Below are positions 9,065 to 35,057 of a DNA stretch of 64,000 nucleotides, piece by piece. The notes under the pieces were generated by a model, which saw nothing but the letters and a program-made list of their open reading frames with translations, was not told the origin of the DNA and searched no databases. Origin of the DNA: Synechococcus sp. MU1617 (GTDB taxonomy: Bacteria; Cyanobacteriota; Cyanobacteriia; PCC-6307; Cyanobiaceae); contig NZ_VTLB01000001.1 of assembly GCF_020514235.1 (NCBI RefSeq), forward strand, positions 124,001-188,000, in the 5' to 3' direction. Made by a program: the position numbers and the translations under genes. How positions within the stretch are numbered: the first letter of the stretch is position 1; each line of letters opens with the position of its first letter.

Positions 9065-11095
9065 TTGAACAATTCCATCCAACCCGGAGACACCGTCGCG
9101 GTTGTTCTCAAGGGTTCTCCTCTTCTCGGCCGTCTTCTGTCCATCAAGGGCAGCAAGGCGGTTCTTTCTTTTGGTGGTCAACGTCGTGACCAGGGCCTGC
9201 CCCTGCGCGATCTGATTGCCATTGATCCTGAGCATCTCTTCGAACAATGTGACCTGCCTGGCCCTGAGCAGGTGCAGGACAGCGCGCCATCAGCACGGGC
9301 CGTCGTCGAGGCCTGGCAGCTGCTGGAAATGGATCAACCTGGGGGCATGGCTCGACTGAGCCTTTGTGAGCTGGGCGAGTTGGTGTTGACCCCGTTCGAT
9401 CTCGCCGGTCTGGCAGCGCTGTGGGCCTGGCTACATGGAAGCCAACAGTTGTTCCGCTGGCGTCGAGACCGCTTGATCCAACCACTCCCCTGCGAGGAAC
9501 GGGACAGCCTGCGGCGCCAACGCCGTGCTGAGCGGCAGGTGCAACAGCATGAAAAACGGCAGCTCGTGTTGCTGCGGGCGGAGCGAGGCCTCAGCGACGA
9601 TGAACGCCTCGAACTGGGCCAGGTTTGGGATGAGCGCTTCAGCCACTGGATTCAGTTGCTGAAAGACAATCCCGCGGCGGTGGGCTCCGACCTGGATCTC
9701 CAGCAGTGGTCGGCACCCTTATCGATCGGATCCGATGCAGCCGATCTGCGGCAATGGTTGATCGTGCGTGGGTTGCTCGATCCCAATGAGCCCATTGGTT
9801 TGAGAGGCAGCGTCTGGTCTCGTCGTTTTCCCACTGATCTGGTGGAGGAAGCGAATCGCCTTGTTGCTCTGTCGAATGAAGAGCTGCCTGGGGATGAGCA
9901 ACGCATCGACCTCACGCACCTGGCGACCTACAGCCTGGACGATGCAGGAACCCGCGAAATTGATGACGCTCTCTCCCTGGAGCGTCGTGACGGCGTTGAT
10001 TGGATCTGGATCCACATCGCTGATCCCAGTCGGCTGATCGGCATTGACTCCCCCCTCGATCAGGAAGCCAAACGTCGGGCCACCAGTTTGTATTTGGCGG
10101 AGGGTGTGATGCCCATGCTCCCTCTTGAGCTGGCAGCCGGTCCCCTCAGCCTGCGGTCCGGGCAGCGTTGTGCAGCCTTGAGTGTGGCCGTCCACCTTGA
10201 TGATGATGGTGCTGTGGCGGAACAACGGATTGCGCGCAGCTGGATCCGACCGCGCTACGGCCTCACTTACACCGATGGTGATGAGCTGATCGAGTTGGCT
10301 CCCCCAGGCGATGAAGCCTTGTCGGATCTCTCGCGACTCTTGATTCAGCGCATGCGCTGGCGCCGCTCCAAAGGGGCCGTGATGTTCGACCGACCCGAGG
10401 GCCGCTTCCGCCGCAGCGATGGGACGTTGACGCTGCAGGTGATTGACCCGTCACCCTCCCGCCTGATGGTGAGTGAAGCGATGCTGCTGATGGGCGCTGT
10501 TGTGGCCAGCTTTGGGAAAGAGCACAACCTGCCACTGCCCTTCCGCAGTCAGCCTGCGGCGGAGCTGCCCTCCAGCGATGAACTCAATCGAATCCCCGAG
10601 GGCCCAGCCCGTGATGCGGCGATTAAGCGCTGTTTGAGCCGTGGCGTGCAGGGAACGCGACCCATGCCCCATTTCAGCCTCGGGCTTGAGGCCTATGTGC
10701 AGGCGACATCACCGATTCGACGCTATGCCGATCTCGTGGCCCACCGCCAGATCATTGCCCAGCTTTCGGCGATTGCGCCGATGGATGAAGAGCATCTGGG
10801 TGAAGTGATCGACGATCTCGATGATCCATTGCGCCAATCCATTCAGATCAGCCGGGAGGATCAACGCCACTGGCAGCAGGTGTGGTTCGCTGAGCATCAG
10901 AACACCGTTTGGTCGGCCGAATTCCTGCGCTGGTTGCGGCCGCAGGATCGATTGGCCCTGGTTTATGTCAGCGACCTGGCCATGGATCTGGTCGGTTGTG
11001 TGACTGCAACAGCCGCTGAGCCCGGCGACGCTCTTGAACTCAAGGTGGGTCGTGCTGACCCCGTACGCGGTGAGCTGCAGCTTCAGTTGTCCTGA
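9065..11095 (+). CDS. RNase II family 3'-5' exoribonuclease, probably active
   Basis: 676 residues starting with TTG 10 bases after rpsR. The RNB domain carries the metal-binding signature as DAGTREIDDALSLE (about residues 296-310); the position equivalent to E. coli Asp207 is Glu, while the other acidic residues are kept. The RNA-clamp motif TSPIRRYADLVAHR is intact. The N-terminal cold-shock and C-terminal S1-like parts are short, typical of cyanobacterial RNase II rather than RNase R. It should degrade single-stranded RNA processively. Its 3' end overlaps the convergent oxidoreductase gene by 13 bases. A second, degenerate paralogue lies at 32124. Confidence 0.88.
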   Translation: MNNSIQPGDTVAVVLKGSPLLGRLLSIKGSKAVLSFGGQRRDQGLPLRDLIAIDPEHLFEQCDLPGPEQVQDSAPSARAVVEAWQLLEMDQPGGMARLSLCELGELVLTPFDLAGLAALWAWLHGSQQLFRWRRDRLIQPLPCEERDSLRRQRRAERQVQQHEKRQLVLLRAERGLSDDERLELGQVWDERFSHWIQLLKDNPAAVGSDLDLQQWSAPLSIGSDAADLRQWLIVRGLLDPNEPIGLRGSVWSRRFPTDLVEEANRLVALSNEELPGDEQRIDLTHLATYSLDDAGTREIDDALSLERRDGVDWIWIHIADPSRLIGIDSPLDQEAKRRATSLYLAEGVMPMLPLELAAGPLSLRSGQRCAALSVAVHLDDDGAVAEQRIARSWIRPRYGLTYTDGDELIELAPPGDEALSDLSRLLIQRMRWRRSKGAVMFDRPEGRFRRSDGTLTLQVIDPSPSRLMVSEAMLLMGAVVASFGKEHNLPLPFRSQPAAELPSSDELNRIPEGPARDAAIKRCLSRGVQGTRPMPHFSLGLEAYVQATSPIRRYADLVAHRQIIAQLSAIAPMDEEHLGEVIDDLDDPLRQSIQISREDQRHWQQVWFAEHQNTVWSAEFLRWLRPQDRLALVYVSDLAMDLVGCVTATAAEPGDALELKVGRADPVRGELQLQLS

Positions 11096-31006: not shown

Positions 31007-31381
31007 ATGAGCCGAACGACGCCGCAATGGACTTGTATCAAGCACTGCGGAGCCTGTTGCCGGCTCGCTCCGGAAGAACGGGCTGACGCCCTGGCGGCCT
31101 TGAGCGAAGAGCAACAACGCACCTATTTGGCCATGGTTGGTCCCGACGGCTGGTGCATTCACTACGACACGGGCAGTCAGCGATGCACGATTTATGAGGA
31201 GCGTCCTGACTTTTGTCGTGTGAGTGGCCTGGGCCGTCTGTTTGACGTTCCCGATGATCAGTTCGATGCCTTTGCCATCGCTTGTTGCCAACAGCAGATT
31301 CGCAGCAGCTATGGCGGTCGCAGTGGCGTGATGCGTAGGTTCAATCGCGCTCAGACCTCTGGAGGCTCTGTTGATGAGTGA
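31007..31381 (+). CDS. YkgJ-family cysteine-cluster protein
   Basis: 124 residues. The Cys pattern CIKHCGACCRL near the N-terminus, then GWCIHYD, RCTIYEERPDFCRV and CC near residue 95, is the YkgJ zinc/iron-chelating family. The protein is soluble and presumably binds a metal ion or Fe-S cluster. Its stop overlaps the start of the first GDT1-type transporter gene (ATG at 31374), so it probably belongs to that metal-related operon. Confidence 0.82.
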   Translation: MSRTTPQWTCIKHCGACCRLAPEERADALAALSEEQQRTYLAMVGPDGWCIHYDTGSQRCTIYEERPDFCRVSGLGRLFDVPDDQFDAFAIACCQQQIRSSYGGRSGVMRRFNRAQTSGGSVDE

Positions 31382-31703
31382 GCAAACCAGCCCTGAGTCG
31401 CGCAGCTTTGCTGCCGTTCTGTTCAGCACCTTCACCACGGTTTTTATTGCTGAACTTGGCGACAAAACGCAGTTGGCAACGCTCTTGCTCTCGGCCCAGT
31501 CGGGCTCACCGGTTCTGGTGTTCATTGGTGCCGCTCTAGCGTTGATTGCCTCCAGCCTTGTGGGCGTTCTCGTGGGTCAATGGTTGGCCAAAACCCTTCC
31601 GCCTGAGCGTCTTGAACTGATGGCTGGAGTGCTGATGGTGGCGCTTGGCATCTGGCTGGGTCTCCAGGCTGCCCGCTCCCTTTGGCTCAATGTCGCGAGC
31701 TGA
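31374..31703 (+). CDS. GDT1/TMEM165 family half-transporter, first copy
   Basis: About 109 residues, three membrane helices. The signature ELGDKTQLATLLL is the GDT1 (UPF0016) cation-exchange motif. Full-length members have two such halves in one chain; here each half is a separate gene and they must pair. Cyanobacterial homologues export manganese from the cytosol or load it into thylakoids. It overlaps the YkgJ gene by 8 bases and ends 2 bases before the second copy. Confidence 0.85.
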   Translation: MSEQTSPESRSFAAVLFSTFTTVFIAELGDKTQLATLLLSAQSGSPVLVFIGAALALIASSLVGVLVGQWLAKTLPPERLELMAGVLMVALGIWLGLQAARSLWLNVAS

Positions 31704-31705
31704 CG

Positions 31706-32023
31706 ATGGATTTTCCACTTCTGATTTCAACCTTCTTGACCGTGTTCCTGGCCGAACTCGGTGACAAGACCCAACTCGCCACCGTTGCCATCAGCGGCAC
31801 GTCCAATCGCCCCCTGGCTGTGTTTCTGGGCTCATCATCCGCGTTGGTTCTTGCCAGTTTGCTCGGGGCCTTTGCTGGTGGATCCGTTGCGACGGTGATT
31901 CCCAGTGACTTACTTCAGCTGTTGGCCTCGCTGGGTTTCCTTGTGATCGGTGGTCGTTTGCTGGTTCCTCTGTTCCGTGAGACAGAACCCGCCGCGGACG
32001 GGGATCAAACTCCTGAGTCCTAG
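31706..32023 (+). CDS. GDT1/TMEM165 family half-transporter, second copy
   Basis: About 105 residues with the same motif, ELGDKTQLATVAI, and three helices. The ATG at 31706 sits 2 bases after the stop of the first copy, a spacing that gives near-equal synthesis and supports a heterodimeric Mn2+/H+ exchanger. The C-terminal tail is acidic (ETEPAADGDQTPES). Sequence divergence from copy one outside the motif suggests the two halves have distinct roles. Confidence 0.85.
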   Translation: MDFPLLISTFLTVFLAELGDKTQLATVAISGTSNRPLAVFLGSSSALVLASLLGAFAGGSVATVIPSDLLQLLASLGFLVIGGRLLVPLFRETEPAADGDQTPES

Positions 32024-32123: not shown

Positions 32124-34445
32124 ATGAAATTCACGGTTGCCGATCTGCTGGATCAGCTCTCGACAGAGCATCCATCCGAGCCAGACCAACTGGCCAAGAT
32201 CCTCAAGCTCAGCAACAAAACGGATAAAGCATCACTTGAGTTGGCCGTTTCATCACTCGTGAAGATCGGTGTGATCGAACAGACGAGTGAGGGAGGTCTC
32301 ACACGACCCCAACAGAGTGACCTGATTGATGCCCGCCTGCGTTGCAGCAGCAAAGGCTTCTGCTTCGCTATTCGCGATGACGGCGGCGAAGATATCTATA
32401 TCCGCGACCATCAGCTCAACCACGCCTGGAATGGCGATCGTGTGCTGGTGCGGGTGACGAGGGATGGTGGACGCCGCCGCTCACCAGAAGGTGGCGTGCA
32501 ATGCATCCTTGAAAGGGCCACTCAATCGCTCTTGGCTCAGGTGGAGCAGCAGAGCGAGCAGCTGCTGGCCGCCCCCTTGGACGACAGGGTGCTCGCTGGT
32601 ATTGAACTTCCAGCAGAGGACTTAAAGCATCTCCCCGGCGATGAAGTCTCCAGCGTTGTCGAGGTGCGCATCGATCGCTACCCCTTGGCGCAGCATGCTG
32701 CCGCCGGTCATGTTGTGCGATCTCTCCCGCTCAACGGCGGACCTGCAGCAGATCGAGACCTGTTACTAACCAAGGCTGGGCTTCAAGACCGTCCGGCTGC
32801 ACCCCGAAGCTCTGGCAAAAACCCTGCGACCAAGGGCCGGGTTGATCTCACGGAGCAACCTTCGTTGCTTCTCAAGGGATGGACTCAGGAGGATGCGCCG
32901 GGGTTGCCTGCCGTGCATGTTGAGGCCATGGACGGTGGTTGTCGCCTCTGGGTCCATGTGCCCAGCGTGGGCGAGCGGATCGGGATAGGCAACAGCCTTG
33001 ATGCCTGCCTGCGCGATCGCGGCGAAGCGCTTTGCCTCGGTCAAGTCTGGCAACCCCTGCTGACTCCGGCCCTCAACAAGGCCACCAGCTTCTCCGCTGG
33101 GTCCGAGGCTGACGCCATCAGCGTTCGGCTCGATATCTCAGCCAACGGTGAGGTGAGCAATTGGGAGTTCATGCTGAGCTCGGTGCGTCCCGTCGCCGAC
33201 GTCTGCGCTGAGCAGTTGATCGCCCTTGCGGAACGCAAACCCAAGGCGCGCAGCATTCCTGCGGCGCTCAAACCGATCAAAGACCAGCTCGGTCAGTTGG
33301 AGACCCTGCGGTTCTGCAGCACCCTGCTGTTGGAGCATGAGCGCATCAACGGGGTTGTGCAACTCAATCTCTGCCCTCCACAGCTGGAGGCCCTTGGTGA
33401 CCTGCGCAGCGCAGATCCATCCGGTTTGCGGCATCGCTGGGTTGATGCGTTCAACCCGTTGGACCCCCATGCGTTCCTTCAGCCTCTGTTGAGGGCTGCT
33501 GACCGTGCATGGACCGCCCAACGACTCGATCTGCAATTGCCTGGGATCACCATCGAGGCGGATGAACCTGATGGCAGCGTGCTGACCGATGTGGCGAAGA
33601 CAGCCATTGCCTTGGATCTCCCCCTTGAGCTGGATGACGACGGCAGCCCATCAGCTTCGGAACTGATTCAGGTGTTCAAAGACAGCAGTCAACGCCGGGT
33701 GCTTGAACAGCAGCTCAGTCACGCCCTGCCACAGCTTTGCCTTGTGGCATCGAAAGAAGCCACCCCGGCGTCAGCAGTTTCCGATGGGGAGGAGGCTGCT
33801 TTGAGCAGCCCCAAGACTTCTCTTACTCCATGGACTTGTGCCACCCAGCACTACGCCCATCTGGTGAATCAACAGGTGATCGTTGCGCTGCTGACCGAGG
33901 CCAAGGATCGTCCAACCGTGCGTCACAAGACGCGCCTGAAGCTTGGGCTTAAGGGTGCCGGTGCTGATCTCACATGGCCCCTGTTCACGGCATCCCAGGA
34001 AGAGAAACTGAACGGATTGGTGAACGAGCGCACCGTGCAGCGGCTCAACAGCCGTCGACGTCAGGTGTTGGAACTGGAAAAGGATCTGCTGTCGATGATC
34101 CAAGCTCGTTCAGCCCAGCCCCTGATCGGCCAACAGGTGGAAGGCCACATCAGTGGTGTTCAGAGCTATGGCTTCTTTGTTGAAGTTGGTGAGAGTCGTG
34201 TTGAGGGGCTGGTTCATGTGAGCTCCCTCAACGATGACTGGTACGAATACAGATCACGCCAGAATCGCTTGGTCGGGCGCAAGAACCGTCAGACCTATCA
34301 ACTCGGCGACACCGTTCAGGTGCGCGTGATCAATGTGGATGTTCTGCGTAACCAGATCGACCTCGAGGTCATCAGTCAGGGTTCCAATGGCTCCAGTGAG
34401 CCTGAATCTTCGGAACCTTTGCCCGTGGCCCTCAGCGAGCGCTGA
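32124..34445 (+). CDS. RNase R/II-family protein with degenerate catalytic motifs
   Basis: 773 residues. An RNase R-like N-terminus has a winged-helix (about 1-65) and cold-shock domain (GFCFAIRDDGGEDIYIRDHQ, about 75-115). The C-terminus has an S1 domain (EGHISGVQSYGFFVEVGES, about 668-745). The RNB region aligns in layout, but the acidic metal-binding signature is replaced (residues 253-270 read GWTQEDAPGLPAVHVEA). The TSPIRRY clamp is also replaced (TPWTCATQHYAHLVNQ, about 568-583). I infer a non-catalytic RNA-binding paralogue of the intact enzyme at 9065. The reading frame is full length, so it is not a decaying pseudogene. Confidence 0.82.
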   Translation: MKFTVADLLDQLSTEHPSEPDQLAKILKLSNKTDKASLELAVSSLVKIGVIEQTSEGGLTRPQQSDLIDARLRCSSKGFCFAIRDDGGEDIYIRDHQLNHAWNGDRVLVRVTRDGGRRRSPEGGVQCILERATQSLLAQVEQQSEQLLAAPLDDRVLAGIELPAEDLKHLPGDEVSSVVEVRIDRYPLAQHAAAGHVVRSLPLNGGPAADRDLLLTKAGLQDRPAAPRSSGKNPATKGRVDLTEQPSLLLKGWTQEDAPGLPAVHVEAMDGGCRLWVHVPSVGERIGIGNSLDACLRDRGEALCLGQVWQPLLTPALNKATSFSAGSEADAISVRLDISANGEVSNWEFMLSSVRPVADVCAEQLIALAERKPKARSIPAALKPIKDQLGQLETLRFCSTLLLEHERINGVVQLNLCPPQLEALGDLRSADPSGLRHRWVDAFNPLDPHAFLQPLLRAADRAWTAQRLDLQLPGITIEADEPDGSVLTDVAKTAIALDLPLELDDDGSPSASELIQVFKDSSQRRVLEQQLSHALPQLCLVASKEATPASAVSDGEEAALSSPKTSLTPWTCATQHYAHLVNQQVIVALLTEAKDRPTVRHKTRLKLGLKGAGADLTWPLFTASQEEKLNGLVNERTVQRLNSRRRQVLELEKDLLSMIQARSAQPLIGQQVEGHISGVQSYGFFVEVGESRVEGLVHVSSLNDDWYEYRSRQNRLVGRKNRQTYQLGDTVQVRVINVDVLRNQIDLEVISQGSNGSSEPESSEPLPVALSER

Positions 34446-34448
34446 GTG

Positions 34449-35057
34449 ATGCATCCCTATGTGCTTGCCGTCACCGGTGCATCGGCCCAACCACTGGCCG
34501 AGCGCGCCCTACAGCTGCTGTTGCAGAACGGGCGCGCGGTGCATCTCGTGCTCAGCCATGGTGCCCATGAGGTCTTCCGTGCGGAACAGGGCCTGTCCAT
34601 TCCTGTGGATCCTGTCAAGCAACGCGAGTTCTGGAGAGACAGGCTTGCAGTGGAGAGCGGCGAACTCACCTGTCATCGCTGGAATGATCAAGCTGCCTGC
34701 ATCGCGAGTGGGAGCTACAAAACCCGGGCGATGGTCATCGTTCCCTGCAGTATGGGTACCGTCGGGCGGATCCATGCCGGTATTGCAGCTGATCTGATCG
34801 AACGTTGTGCAGATGTGCATCTGAAGGAGCGCCGTCCTCTGGTGATTGCTCCGCGGGAGATGCCCTTCAACCTCATTCACCTCCGCAACCTCACCGGCCT
34901 GGCTGAGGCTGGAGCAACCATTGCCGCTCCCATCCCGGCGTGGTATACCCGGCCCGATTCGTTGCAAGAGATGGTGGACTTTTTAGTGGTGCGCTTGTTC
35001 GATGGTCTGGAGGAAGACCTCGCACCCCTGAAACGCTGGAACGGCCCCCTGGAATGA
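34449..35057 (+). CDS. ubiX: UbiX-family flavin prenyltransferase
   Basis: About 202 residues. Typical features are AVTGASAQPLAERALQLLL at the N-terminus, VIVPCSMGTVGRIHAG in the middle, and RPLVIAPREMPFNLIHLRN. UbiX prenylates FMN to make the cofactor of UbiD decarboxylases; in cyanobacteria this feeds plastoquinone synthesis. The ATG at 34449 follows the upstream stop by 3 bases, and its own stop overlaps the next ATG (ATGA). Confidence 0.9.
   Translation: MHPYVLAVTGASAQPLAERALQLLLQNGRAVHLVLSHGAHEVFRAEQGLSIPVDPVKQREFWRDRLAVESGELTCHRWNDQAACIASGSYKTRAMVIVPCSMGTVGRIHAGIAADLIERCADVHLKERRPLVIAPREMPFNLIHLRNLTGLAEAGATIAAPIPAWYTRPDSLQEMVDFLVVRLFDGLEEDLAPLKRWNGPLE

Follow-up and report, generated by a model that had tools for sequence, protein, structure and literature searches.

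The open reading frame at 32124-34445 of the window (the whole stretch of 64,000 nucleotides that was analysed) most probably encodes Zam, a member of the RNase R branch of the RNB family that is catalytically dead and held by purifying selection, and we put the probability of this joint reading at roughly 90%. The loss of the catalytic site is real and its explanation is already in print: Zam, an RNB-family protein of cyanobacteria, was described in 2022 by Thomas et al. (PMC9145284), who reported its degenerate site and the redox activity of a pair of cysteines. The Zam of the window is not peculiar to its genome, being part of this already described family that is present through most of the class. 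What is added here is a class-wide grading of the loss, a test of selection within the genus of the window, exceptions to the cysteine pair, and a third cysteine, C127. The graded loss, C127 and a new set of pocket residues were not found in print in a search limited to open-licence literature without supplementary files, and the words Prochlorococcus, marine and picocyanobacteria are absent from the main text of PMC9145284, whose organism table is supplementary.

Gene, domains and predicted fold

The gene and its main domains are as follows.

32124-34445, plus strand: zam open reading frame, an RNase R-like pseudonuclease of 773 amino acids plus stop (frame, Pfam and alignments)
32322-32516, plus strand: CSD1 (residues 67-131), the most conserved domain, holding R73, C74, K77, F79, C80, F81, W102, R117-R119 and C127
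32838-33899, plus strand: RNB domain (residues 239-592), fold retained, catalytic site gone
34110-34373, plus strand: S1 domain (residues 663-750), the second most conserved

The frame starts with ATG and runs for 773 codons without an internal stop, as the sequence-only reading had stated. That reading had also given the domain order as winged helix, cold-shock, RNB and S1. The last three were recovered with Pfam (OB_RNB at residues 71-126, CSD2 at 89-131, RNB at 239-592 with 112.1 bits against a cut-off of 29.3, and S1 at 668-749), while residues 1-66 gave no match to any Pfam HTH model at E values up to 1, and the putative winged helix rests only on three helices predicted there.

An AlphaFold2 model built on 108 aligned Zam sequences had a mean pLDDT of 89.9 and a pTM of 0.89, with values below 50 in the loop 547-563 and the tail 754-773. 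The top Foldseek matches of the model were RNase R structures (8cdu with E 6e-43; 5xgu with a TM score of 0.83 on the target), and comparison with seven RNase R entries in VIA-align gave Z scores of 33.9 to 35.3 over 532 to 610 residues in six entries and 406 in the remaining one. The product is thus confidently predicted to have an RNase R fold. Bacterial RNase R outranked the yeast pseudonuclease Ssd1 (7am1) in both programs, the latter matching with a Foldseek E value of 6e-29 and a VIA-align Z of 28.3. With RNase R of E. coli (5xgu) and B. subtilis (8cdu) the protein has the domain order and the fold in common; in contrast to them it lacks the catalytic acids and the arginine clamp and fails the NCBIfam RNase R equivalog TIGR02063 (194.3 bits against a cut-off of 597.85).

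Identification as Zam

The open reading frame was identified as Zam because its domain set, the presence of two RNB proteins per genome, the spacing of its cysteine pair, W102 and R117-R119 match the published protein; orthology is argued from these features together with a continuous family. The features of Zam given in PMC9145284 include a domain order like that of RNase R, those residues of CSD1 through which RNase II contacts RNA, an arginine repeat and a conserved tryptophan, and cyanobacteria are stated there to have two RNB proteins per genome. In the window product, CSD1, CSD2, RNB and S1 follow one another in the RNase R order (by Pfam, with the predicted fold in agreement), the active site of the RNB domain is degenerate and without the four acidic ligands, the cysteine pair of the CSD1 L12 loop (C73/C79 in Synechococcus PCC 7002) is found as C74/C80, and the RNA-contact residues R73, K77, F79 and F81 are accompanied by the loop tryptophan W102 and the arginines R117-R119. 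Published Zam is thus like that of the window in having two cold shock domains, RNB, S1, a degenerate site, the CSD1 cysteine pair, the tryptophan, the arginine repeat and an RNase II alongside. Unlike it, the picocyanobacterial form has C127, none or one of the four acids, and newly conserved residues in the old pocket. Of what defines a catalytic RNase R, the fold was found and the four acids, the TSPIRRY arginine and the equivalog score were not.

The name zam refers to acetazolamide resistance, the gene being sll1910 in Synechocystis PCC 6803 and A1543 in Synechococcus PCC 7002, and Zam is annotated as an exonuclease in many genomes (PMC9145284). Deletion of zam in Synechococcus PCC 7002 led to less phycocyanin synthesis and an altered photosystem ratio according to the same paper, which fits the suggestion, made earlier from the sequence, of a regulatory paralogue.

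Only two genes with an RNB domain were found in the genome, zam and a second chromosomal gene that also lies in the window.

9065-11095, plus strand: RNase II-like protein with an intact catalytic site, the genome's only other RNB protein (Pfam and motif reading)

This protein shares the RNB domain with Zam and keeps the four acids (D292, E298, D300, D301) and the TSPIRRY motif (from residue 548). It is grouped here with cyanobacterial RNase II of the type of Synechocystis Sll1290, whose identity as an RNase II has been demonstrated (PMC3293843; PMC10989914). The name RNase II is given here by resemblance and is putative, the scores lying under the NCBIfam cut-offs. The residue at the Asp207 position is glutamate (E298), the other ligands being aspartates.

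The catalytic site

Catalytic positions were read from an alignment of E. coli RNase R, E. coli RNase II and 95 loci, the zam of the window among them, and are numbered as in E. coli RNase II.

32874-32909, plus strand: former metal-binding motif (residues 251-262), acids missing at positions 201, 209 and 210 (alignments)
33033-33035, plus strand: C304 at the Tyr253 position (alignments)
33834-33854, plus strand: TCATQHY (residues 571-577) replacing TSPIRRY (alignments)

The positions of Asp201, Asp209 and Asp210 are occupied by K251, L261 and P262, and that of Tyr253 by C304. Position 207 depends on the alignment, being D257 in one alignment and proline if it is anchored two residues before 209. 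The TSPIRRY motif reads T571-C-A-T-Q-H-Y577, in which Arg500 has become Q575. E652, which aligns with E542, was kept. The sequence-only reading had held that the acidic signature of the RNB domain was absent, that the TSPIRRY clamp was replaced and that the RNase II gene of the window was intact, and all three statements were borne out, with position 207 as the one ambiguous point.

Using 48 family rows, we searched the RNB region for conserved aspartate, glutamate, cysteine and histidine residues that could serve as substitute ligands. Those conserved in at least 90% of the rows were D241, E284, H278, C304 and position 466 (histidine in most rows and glutamine in the window product), and D241 and E284 were the only acids among them. 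These residues form no four-acid site, so that an active enzyme with substitute ligands was rejected; no other conserved residues visibly take the place of the catalytic ones, in line with the earlier proposal of a non-catalytic protein. The Zam of the window very probably cannot degrade RNA, and what PMC9145284 states on the knock-out and on the protein in vitro is in keeping with this.

Residual exonuclease activity, weak or specialised and based on ligands supplied from other positions, would agree with the retention of E652 and with some other lineages that keep the arginine, the tyrosine and three of the four acids (see below). It would also agree with a review (PMC10989914) which states that the Anabaena RNB protein Alr1240 degrades unstructured RNA, an RNase II-like activity, and binds RNase E. 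Alr1240 is identified as Zam in PMC9145284, and if both statements hold some Zam proteins would be active. In the family of the window, however, D241 and E284 are the only acids conserved to this extent in the RNB region, the R500 and Y253 positions are altered as well, and no activity was reported for Zam in PMC9145284, which makes residual exonuclease activity of the window protein very improbable.

Selection on zam

Values of dN/dS were calculated as medians over the 78 pairs of 13 genomes of the same genus, using the Nei-Gojobori method in our own script. For zam dN/dS was 0.087 over the whole gene, 0.013 in CSD1, 0.037 in S1, 0.064 in CSD2 and 0.124 in RNB, at a median dS of 0.68; short windows over the old pocket gave noisy values of 0.045 to 0.073. 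For the RNase II-like gene in the same genomes the values were 0.112 for the whole gene and 0.087 for its RNB domain. The RNB domain of Zam is therefore somewhat less constrained than that of the active RNase II-like protein and far from neutral. The mean frequency of the commonest residue in the 48 family rows was 0.855 in CSD1, 0.779 in S1 and 0.525 in RNB. Constraint is strongest in CSD1 and S1, in agreement with PMC9145284, where conservation of Zam is described as clustering in the OB-fold domains.

In the family of the window zam was found in 49 of 61 drawn genomes (48 near full length and one cut by a contig end), and the 12 genomes without it were all less than 90% complete; each of the 34 genomes with a completeness of at least 90% gave a match. 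A decaying pseudogene caught early might be suspected from the missing catalytic residues, from the slightly higher dN/dS of the RNB domain of zam (0.124) than of RNase II (0.087), and from one apparently split zam in another lineage (G229). Given the whole-gene dN/dS, which is close to that of RNase II, the near full length of the gene in the family apart from incomplete genomes and one contig end, and the model confidence of 89.9, this explanation is rejected by constraint and has next to no chance of being right. The gene is maintained and not decaying, as the sequence-only reading had supposed in calling it kept by selection.

Distribution and graded loss of the site

Within the genus 33 of 34 genomes carry zam (two of them partially), the exception being 77% complete. 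In a draw across the phylum 50 of 117 genomes matched Zam, 49 belonging to the same class as the window and one to another class, the latter through the S1 domain only; 67 genomes gave no match, and among the 20 of these listed all were of other classes. Two class members, G256 and G208 (99 and 97% complete), gave no Zam match, their only RNB match lying in a frame with the size of an RNase II, and the statement in PMC9145284 that Zam is present in every cyanobacterial genome searched may thus have exceptions.

The state of the site was scored in 289 Zam rows, 156 from the family of the window (f1; 146 of them distinct) and 133 from other families (all distinct). Acids at the four ligand positions numbered none in 139 rows, one in 70, two in 53 and three in 27, and no row had all four. 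Three acids were retained in families f5, f8 and f38 and in 9 of 13 rows of f39, and all rows of f15 and f45 retained the Asp-Asp pair, the arginine and the tyrosine. At the other end, f1 had no acids in 126 rows and one in 30, and four genomes of f40 had none at the ligand positions and kept the cysteines. Outside f1, position 207 was aspartate in 1 of 133 rows (G214, after a loop insertion) and glutamate in 16. The alignments thus point to a loss of the catalytic site that is graded across the class.

Changes of state were counted on a tree of 84 rows with the RNB columns excluded. The minimum was 5 changes for the Asp-Asp state and 10 for the arginine (83 rows; for five of them, belonging to f40 and f18, the state was assigned by reading). 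This tree is in effect unrooted, since the branch that bears the outgroup has a total length of 10 and long rows meet, and on it the three-acid state may be either ancestral or derived.

We also considered, and rejected, the presence of a true RNase R in some other member of the class. One of 146 class genomes (G285) passed the equivalog cut-off, its Zam (L208) scoring 603.5 bits with its neighbours in frame, and the motif still has lysine and serine in place of the acids at the Asp201 and Asp207 positions; naming by model would call this protein RNase R. Phylum-wide, none of 59 drawn genomes passed the RNase R equivalog cut-off, and four genomes of other classes matched part of the model only.

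Mobile copies of Zam were likewise rejected, since the matches in 31 phage and 53 plasmid records were all below 60% identity; among the matches listed (10 phage and 15 plasmid rows) identity was 20 to 29% and the annotated products were RNase R or 'nuclease'. In G229 (f18, 99% complete) zam appears to be split into two frames, L316 and L328, of 281 and 475 codons, possibly by a frameshift or as a pseudogene.

Neighbours of zam

34446-35057, plus strand: UbiX-family flavin prenyltransferase, starting immediately after the zam stop codon (TIGR00421, 167 bits)

Of 74 named picocyanobacterial loci, 60 have a UbiX homologue within 400 bases after the end of the zam match, and one was also found near zam in 10 of 27 other loci of the class, whose flanks were short. 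The pair may be an old operon. Just upstream of zam lie two overlapping half-size GDT1 (cation/proton antiporter) genes, at 31371-31703 and 31682-32023 on the plus strand. Each of the two, used as a query, had an upstream match in all 71 named loci with enough flank, and being related the two queries may match one and the same gene in some of these loci.

Cysteines of CSD1

32343-32345, plus strand: C74, first cysteine of the Zam redox pair (alignment)
32361-32363, plus strand: C80, second cysteine of the pair (alignment)
32502-32504, plus strand: C127, third cysteine of CSD1 (rows of the own family compared with those of other families)

The cysteine pair was kept in 281 of the 289 rows. Its residues are numbered 74 and 80 in the window; the published numbering, 73/79, applied to 95 of the 156 own-family rows and to 107 of the 133 rows from other families. 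The 8 rows without one or both cysteines comprised Synechococcus RCC307 and G008 (C74 to Ser), the Prochlorococcus single-cell genome AG-363-O06 (C80 to Ser), f34 and f18, with RCC307 and AG-363-O06 each counted twice. Four further f18 rows beyond the 289 also lacked the pair. In the f18 loci L085, L285 and L312-L315 both cysteines of the CSD1 loop are gone (RFSRGSF-W or R-YSRGSYW), and the arginine-rich stretch and the S1 motif remain; this loss is a natural test of the redox model.

Among named Prochlorococcus loci 32 of 33 had the cysteine pair. Because the pair is kept in Prochlorococcus, which has no phycobilisomes, the published effect on phycocyanin is necessarily one outcome of a broader role and not the general function of Zam. 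All 156 f1 rows have cysteine at position 127, in the last strand of CSD1, and none of the 133 rows from other families does, these having leucine, valine, alanine or methionine there.

The old pocket in the picocyanobacterial lineage

33234-33281, plus strand: basic stretch conserved in the own family, residues 371-386 (family alignment)

The former pocket has not simply been left to vary. Seven residues at its positions (W253, P259, C304, W309, P569, W570 and N582) were each present in at least 90% of the 48 family rows and in less than 20% of rows outside, and K372, R376, K383 and K386 make up a basic stretch that is new in the family. In three pocket windows set by the RNase II motifs there were 9 such switch sites among 49 positions compared with 25 among 305 elsewhere in the RNB domain (one-sided Fisher test, p = 0.03), and 14 conserved sites among 49 compared with 52 among 305 (p = 0.047); the two tests share the same windows, and the alignment near 251-263 is uncertain.

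One explanation is that in picocyanobacteria the old pocket now binds something new, be it a small ligand, an RNA end or a protein, of which Zam would be the sensor. The lineage-specific residues, the basic stretch 371-386 and the enrichment of switch sites and conserved sites in the pocket would fit this. The two tests are weak, however, and use shared windows in a region partly of uncertain alignment, another residue stands in place of C304 in 28 of the 156 family rows (13 from named Prochlorococcus), and C304 and C571/C572 did not covary beyond phylogeny, so that a sensor of this kind appears improbable. A second disulfide in the old pocket, between C304 and C571 or C572, was rejected: in the 156 rows both sides were present in 116 and neither in 17, with 12 and 11 mixed, and the tree held only 4 independent pairs on starred branches, for which the sign test was not significant.

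A wider proposal is that the picocyanobacterial ancestor rebuilt Zam, the new conserved pocket (W253, P259, C304, W309, N582 and the stretch 371-386) replacing the nuclease remnants as C127 was gained. A three-cysteine redox switch coupled to the funnel site would then tie the fate of RNA to photosynthetic electron flow in marine Synechococcus and Prochlorococcus with no need for phycobilisomes. We regard this proposal as speculative and unlikely to hold as a whole.

Discussion

How a dead RNB protein may act is suggested by its most constrained parts. In the mechanism that we consider most likely, the RNB core would be a scaffold that positions CSD1 and S1, the CSD1 loop (R73, K77, F79, F81) would touch RNA, or else a partner with bound RNA such as RNase E, and a C74-C80 disulfide forming reversibly within this loop would switch the contact with the photosynthetic redox state. 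CSD1 and S1 would thus grip RNA or an RNase E-RNA complex under control of the disulfide, and decay or translation of the target mRNAs would track light and electron flow. We infer RNA binding, control through RNase E and redox gating, and the proposal as a whole is tentative, with somewhat less than an even chance of being correct. RNA binding by the Zam of the window is plausible from its CSD1 residues. The link to RNase E is a proposal of PMC9145284, and an RNase E interaction has been reported in Anabaena. In favour of this mechanism are the reports that C73S or C79S phenocopies the zam deletion in PCC 7002 and that the mobility of the purified PCC 7002 protein shifts with redox state (PMC9145284), together with the precedent of Ssd1 (PMC8934651). 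Against it stand the statement in PMC9145284 that purified PCC 7002 Zam, an aggregation-prone protein, had neither nuclease nor RNA-binding activity (given there as data not shown), the conflict between publications over Alr1240, and the exceptions to the cysteine pair (8 of 289 rows).

Zam could also act without RNase E in the manner of Ssd1, CSD1 and S1 binding internal mRNA sequences and altering their translation or stability, with the dead RNB funnel as no more than a frame. The fungal pseudonucleases of the Ssd1 type resemble Zam in the RNB-family fold, the lost catalytic residues and the conserved cold shock domains, which are their RNA-binding part (PMC8934651; PMC8097288), and yeast Ssd1 binds RNA through the conserved outer face of these domains (PMC8934651), with which the conservation of CSD1 in Zam agrees by analogy. 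The pattern of constraint is alike, the OB domains being conserved and the catalytic site lost, the canonical CSD1 loop residues are conserved, and the model matches the fold of 7am1 in both structural searches. Unlike Zam, proteins of the Ssd1 type are eukaryotic and near Dis3L2, and the funnel of Ssd1 is blocked by loops and insertions (PMC8934651). The reported absence of RNA binding by purified PCC 7002 Zam (PMC9145284) counts against this account too, as does the RNase E interaction reported in Anabaena (PMC10989914), and we consider it possible while leaning against it. It may be added that we know of no target RNA of Zam.

Zam is annotated as an exonuclease in many genomes and has no full catalytic site, and models of RNA decay in abundant marine cyanobacteria may therefore include an exonuclease that these organisms lack. 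The site has been lost by degrees within a single bacterial class while CSD1 and S1 stayed highly conserved; this is a counterpart, among bacteria, of the fungal pseudonucleases, and it lets one ask how a processive nuclease becomes a regulator. The cysteine pair of Prochlorococcus and the family-specific C127 offer direct tests of redox control of RNA without phycobilisomes. Zam is probably a redox-sensitive RNA regulator, of which the version in the window represents a strongly altered branch of the family.
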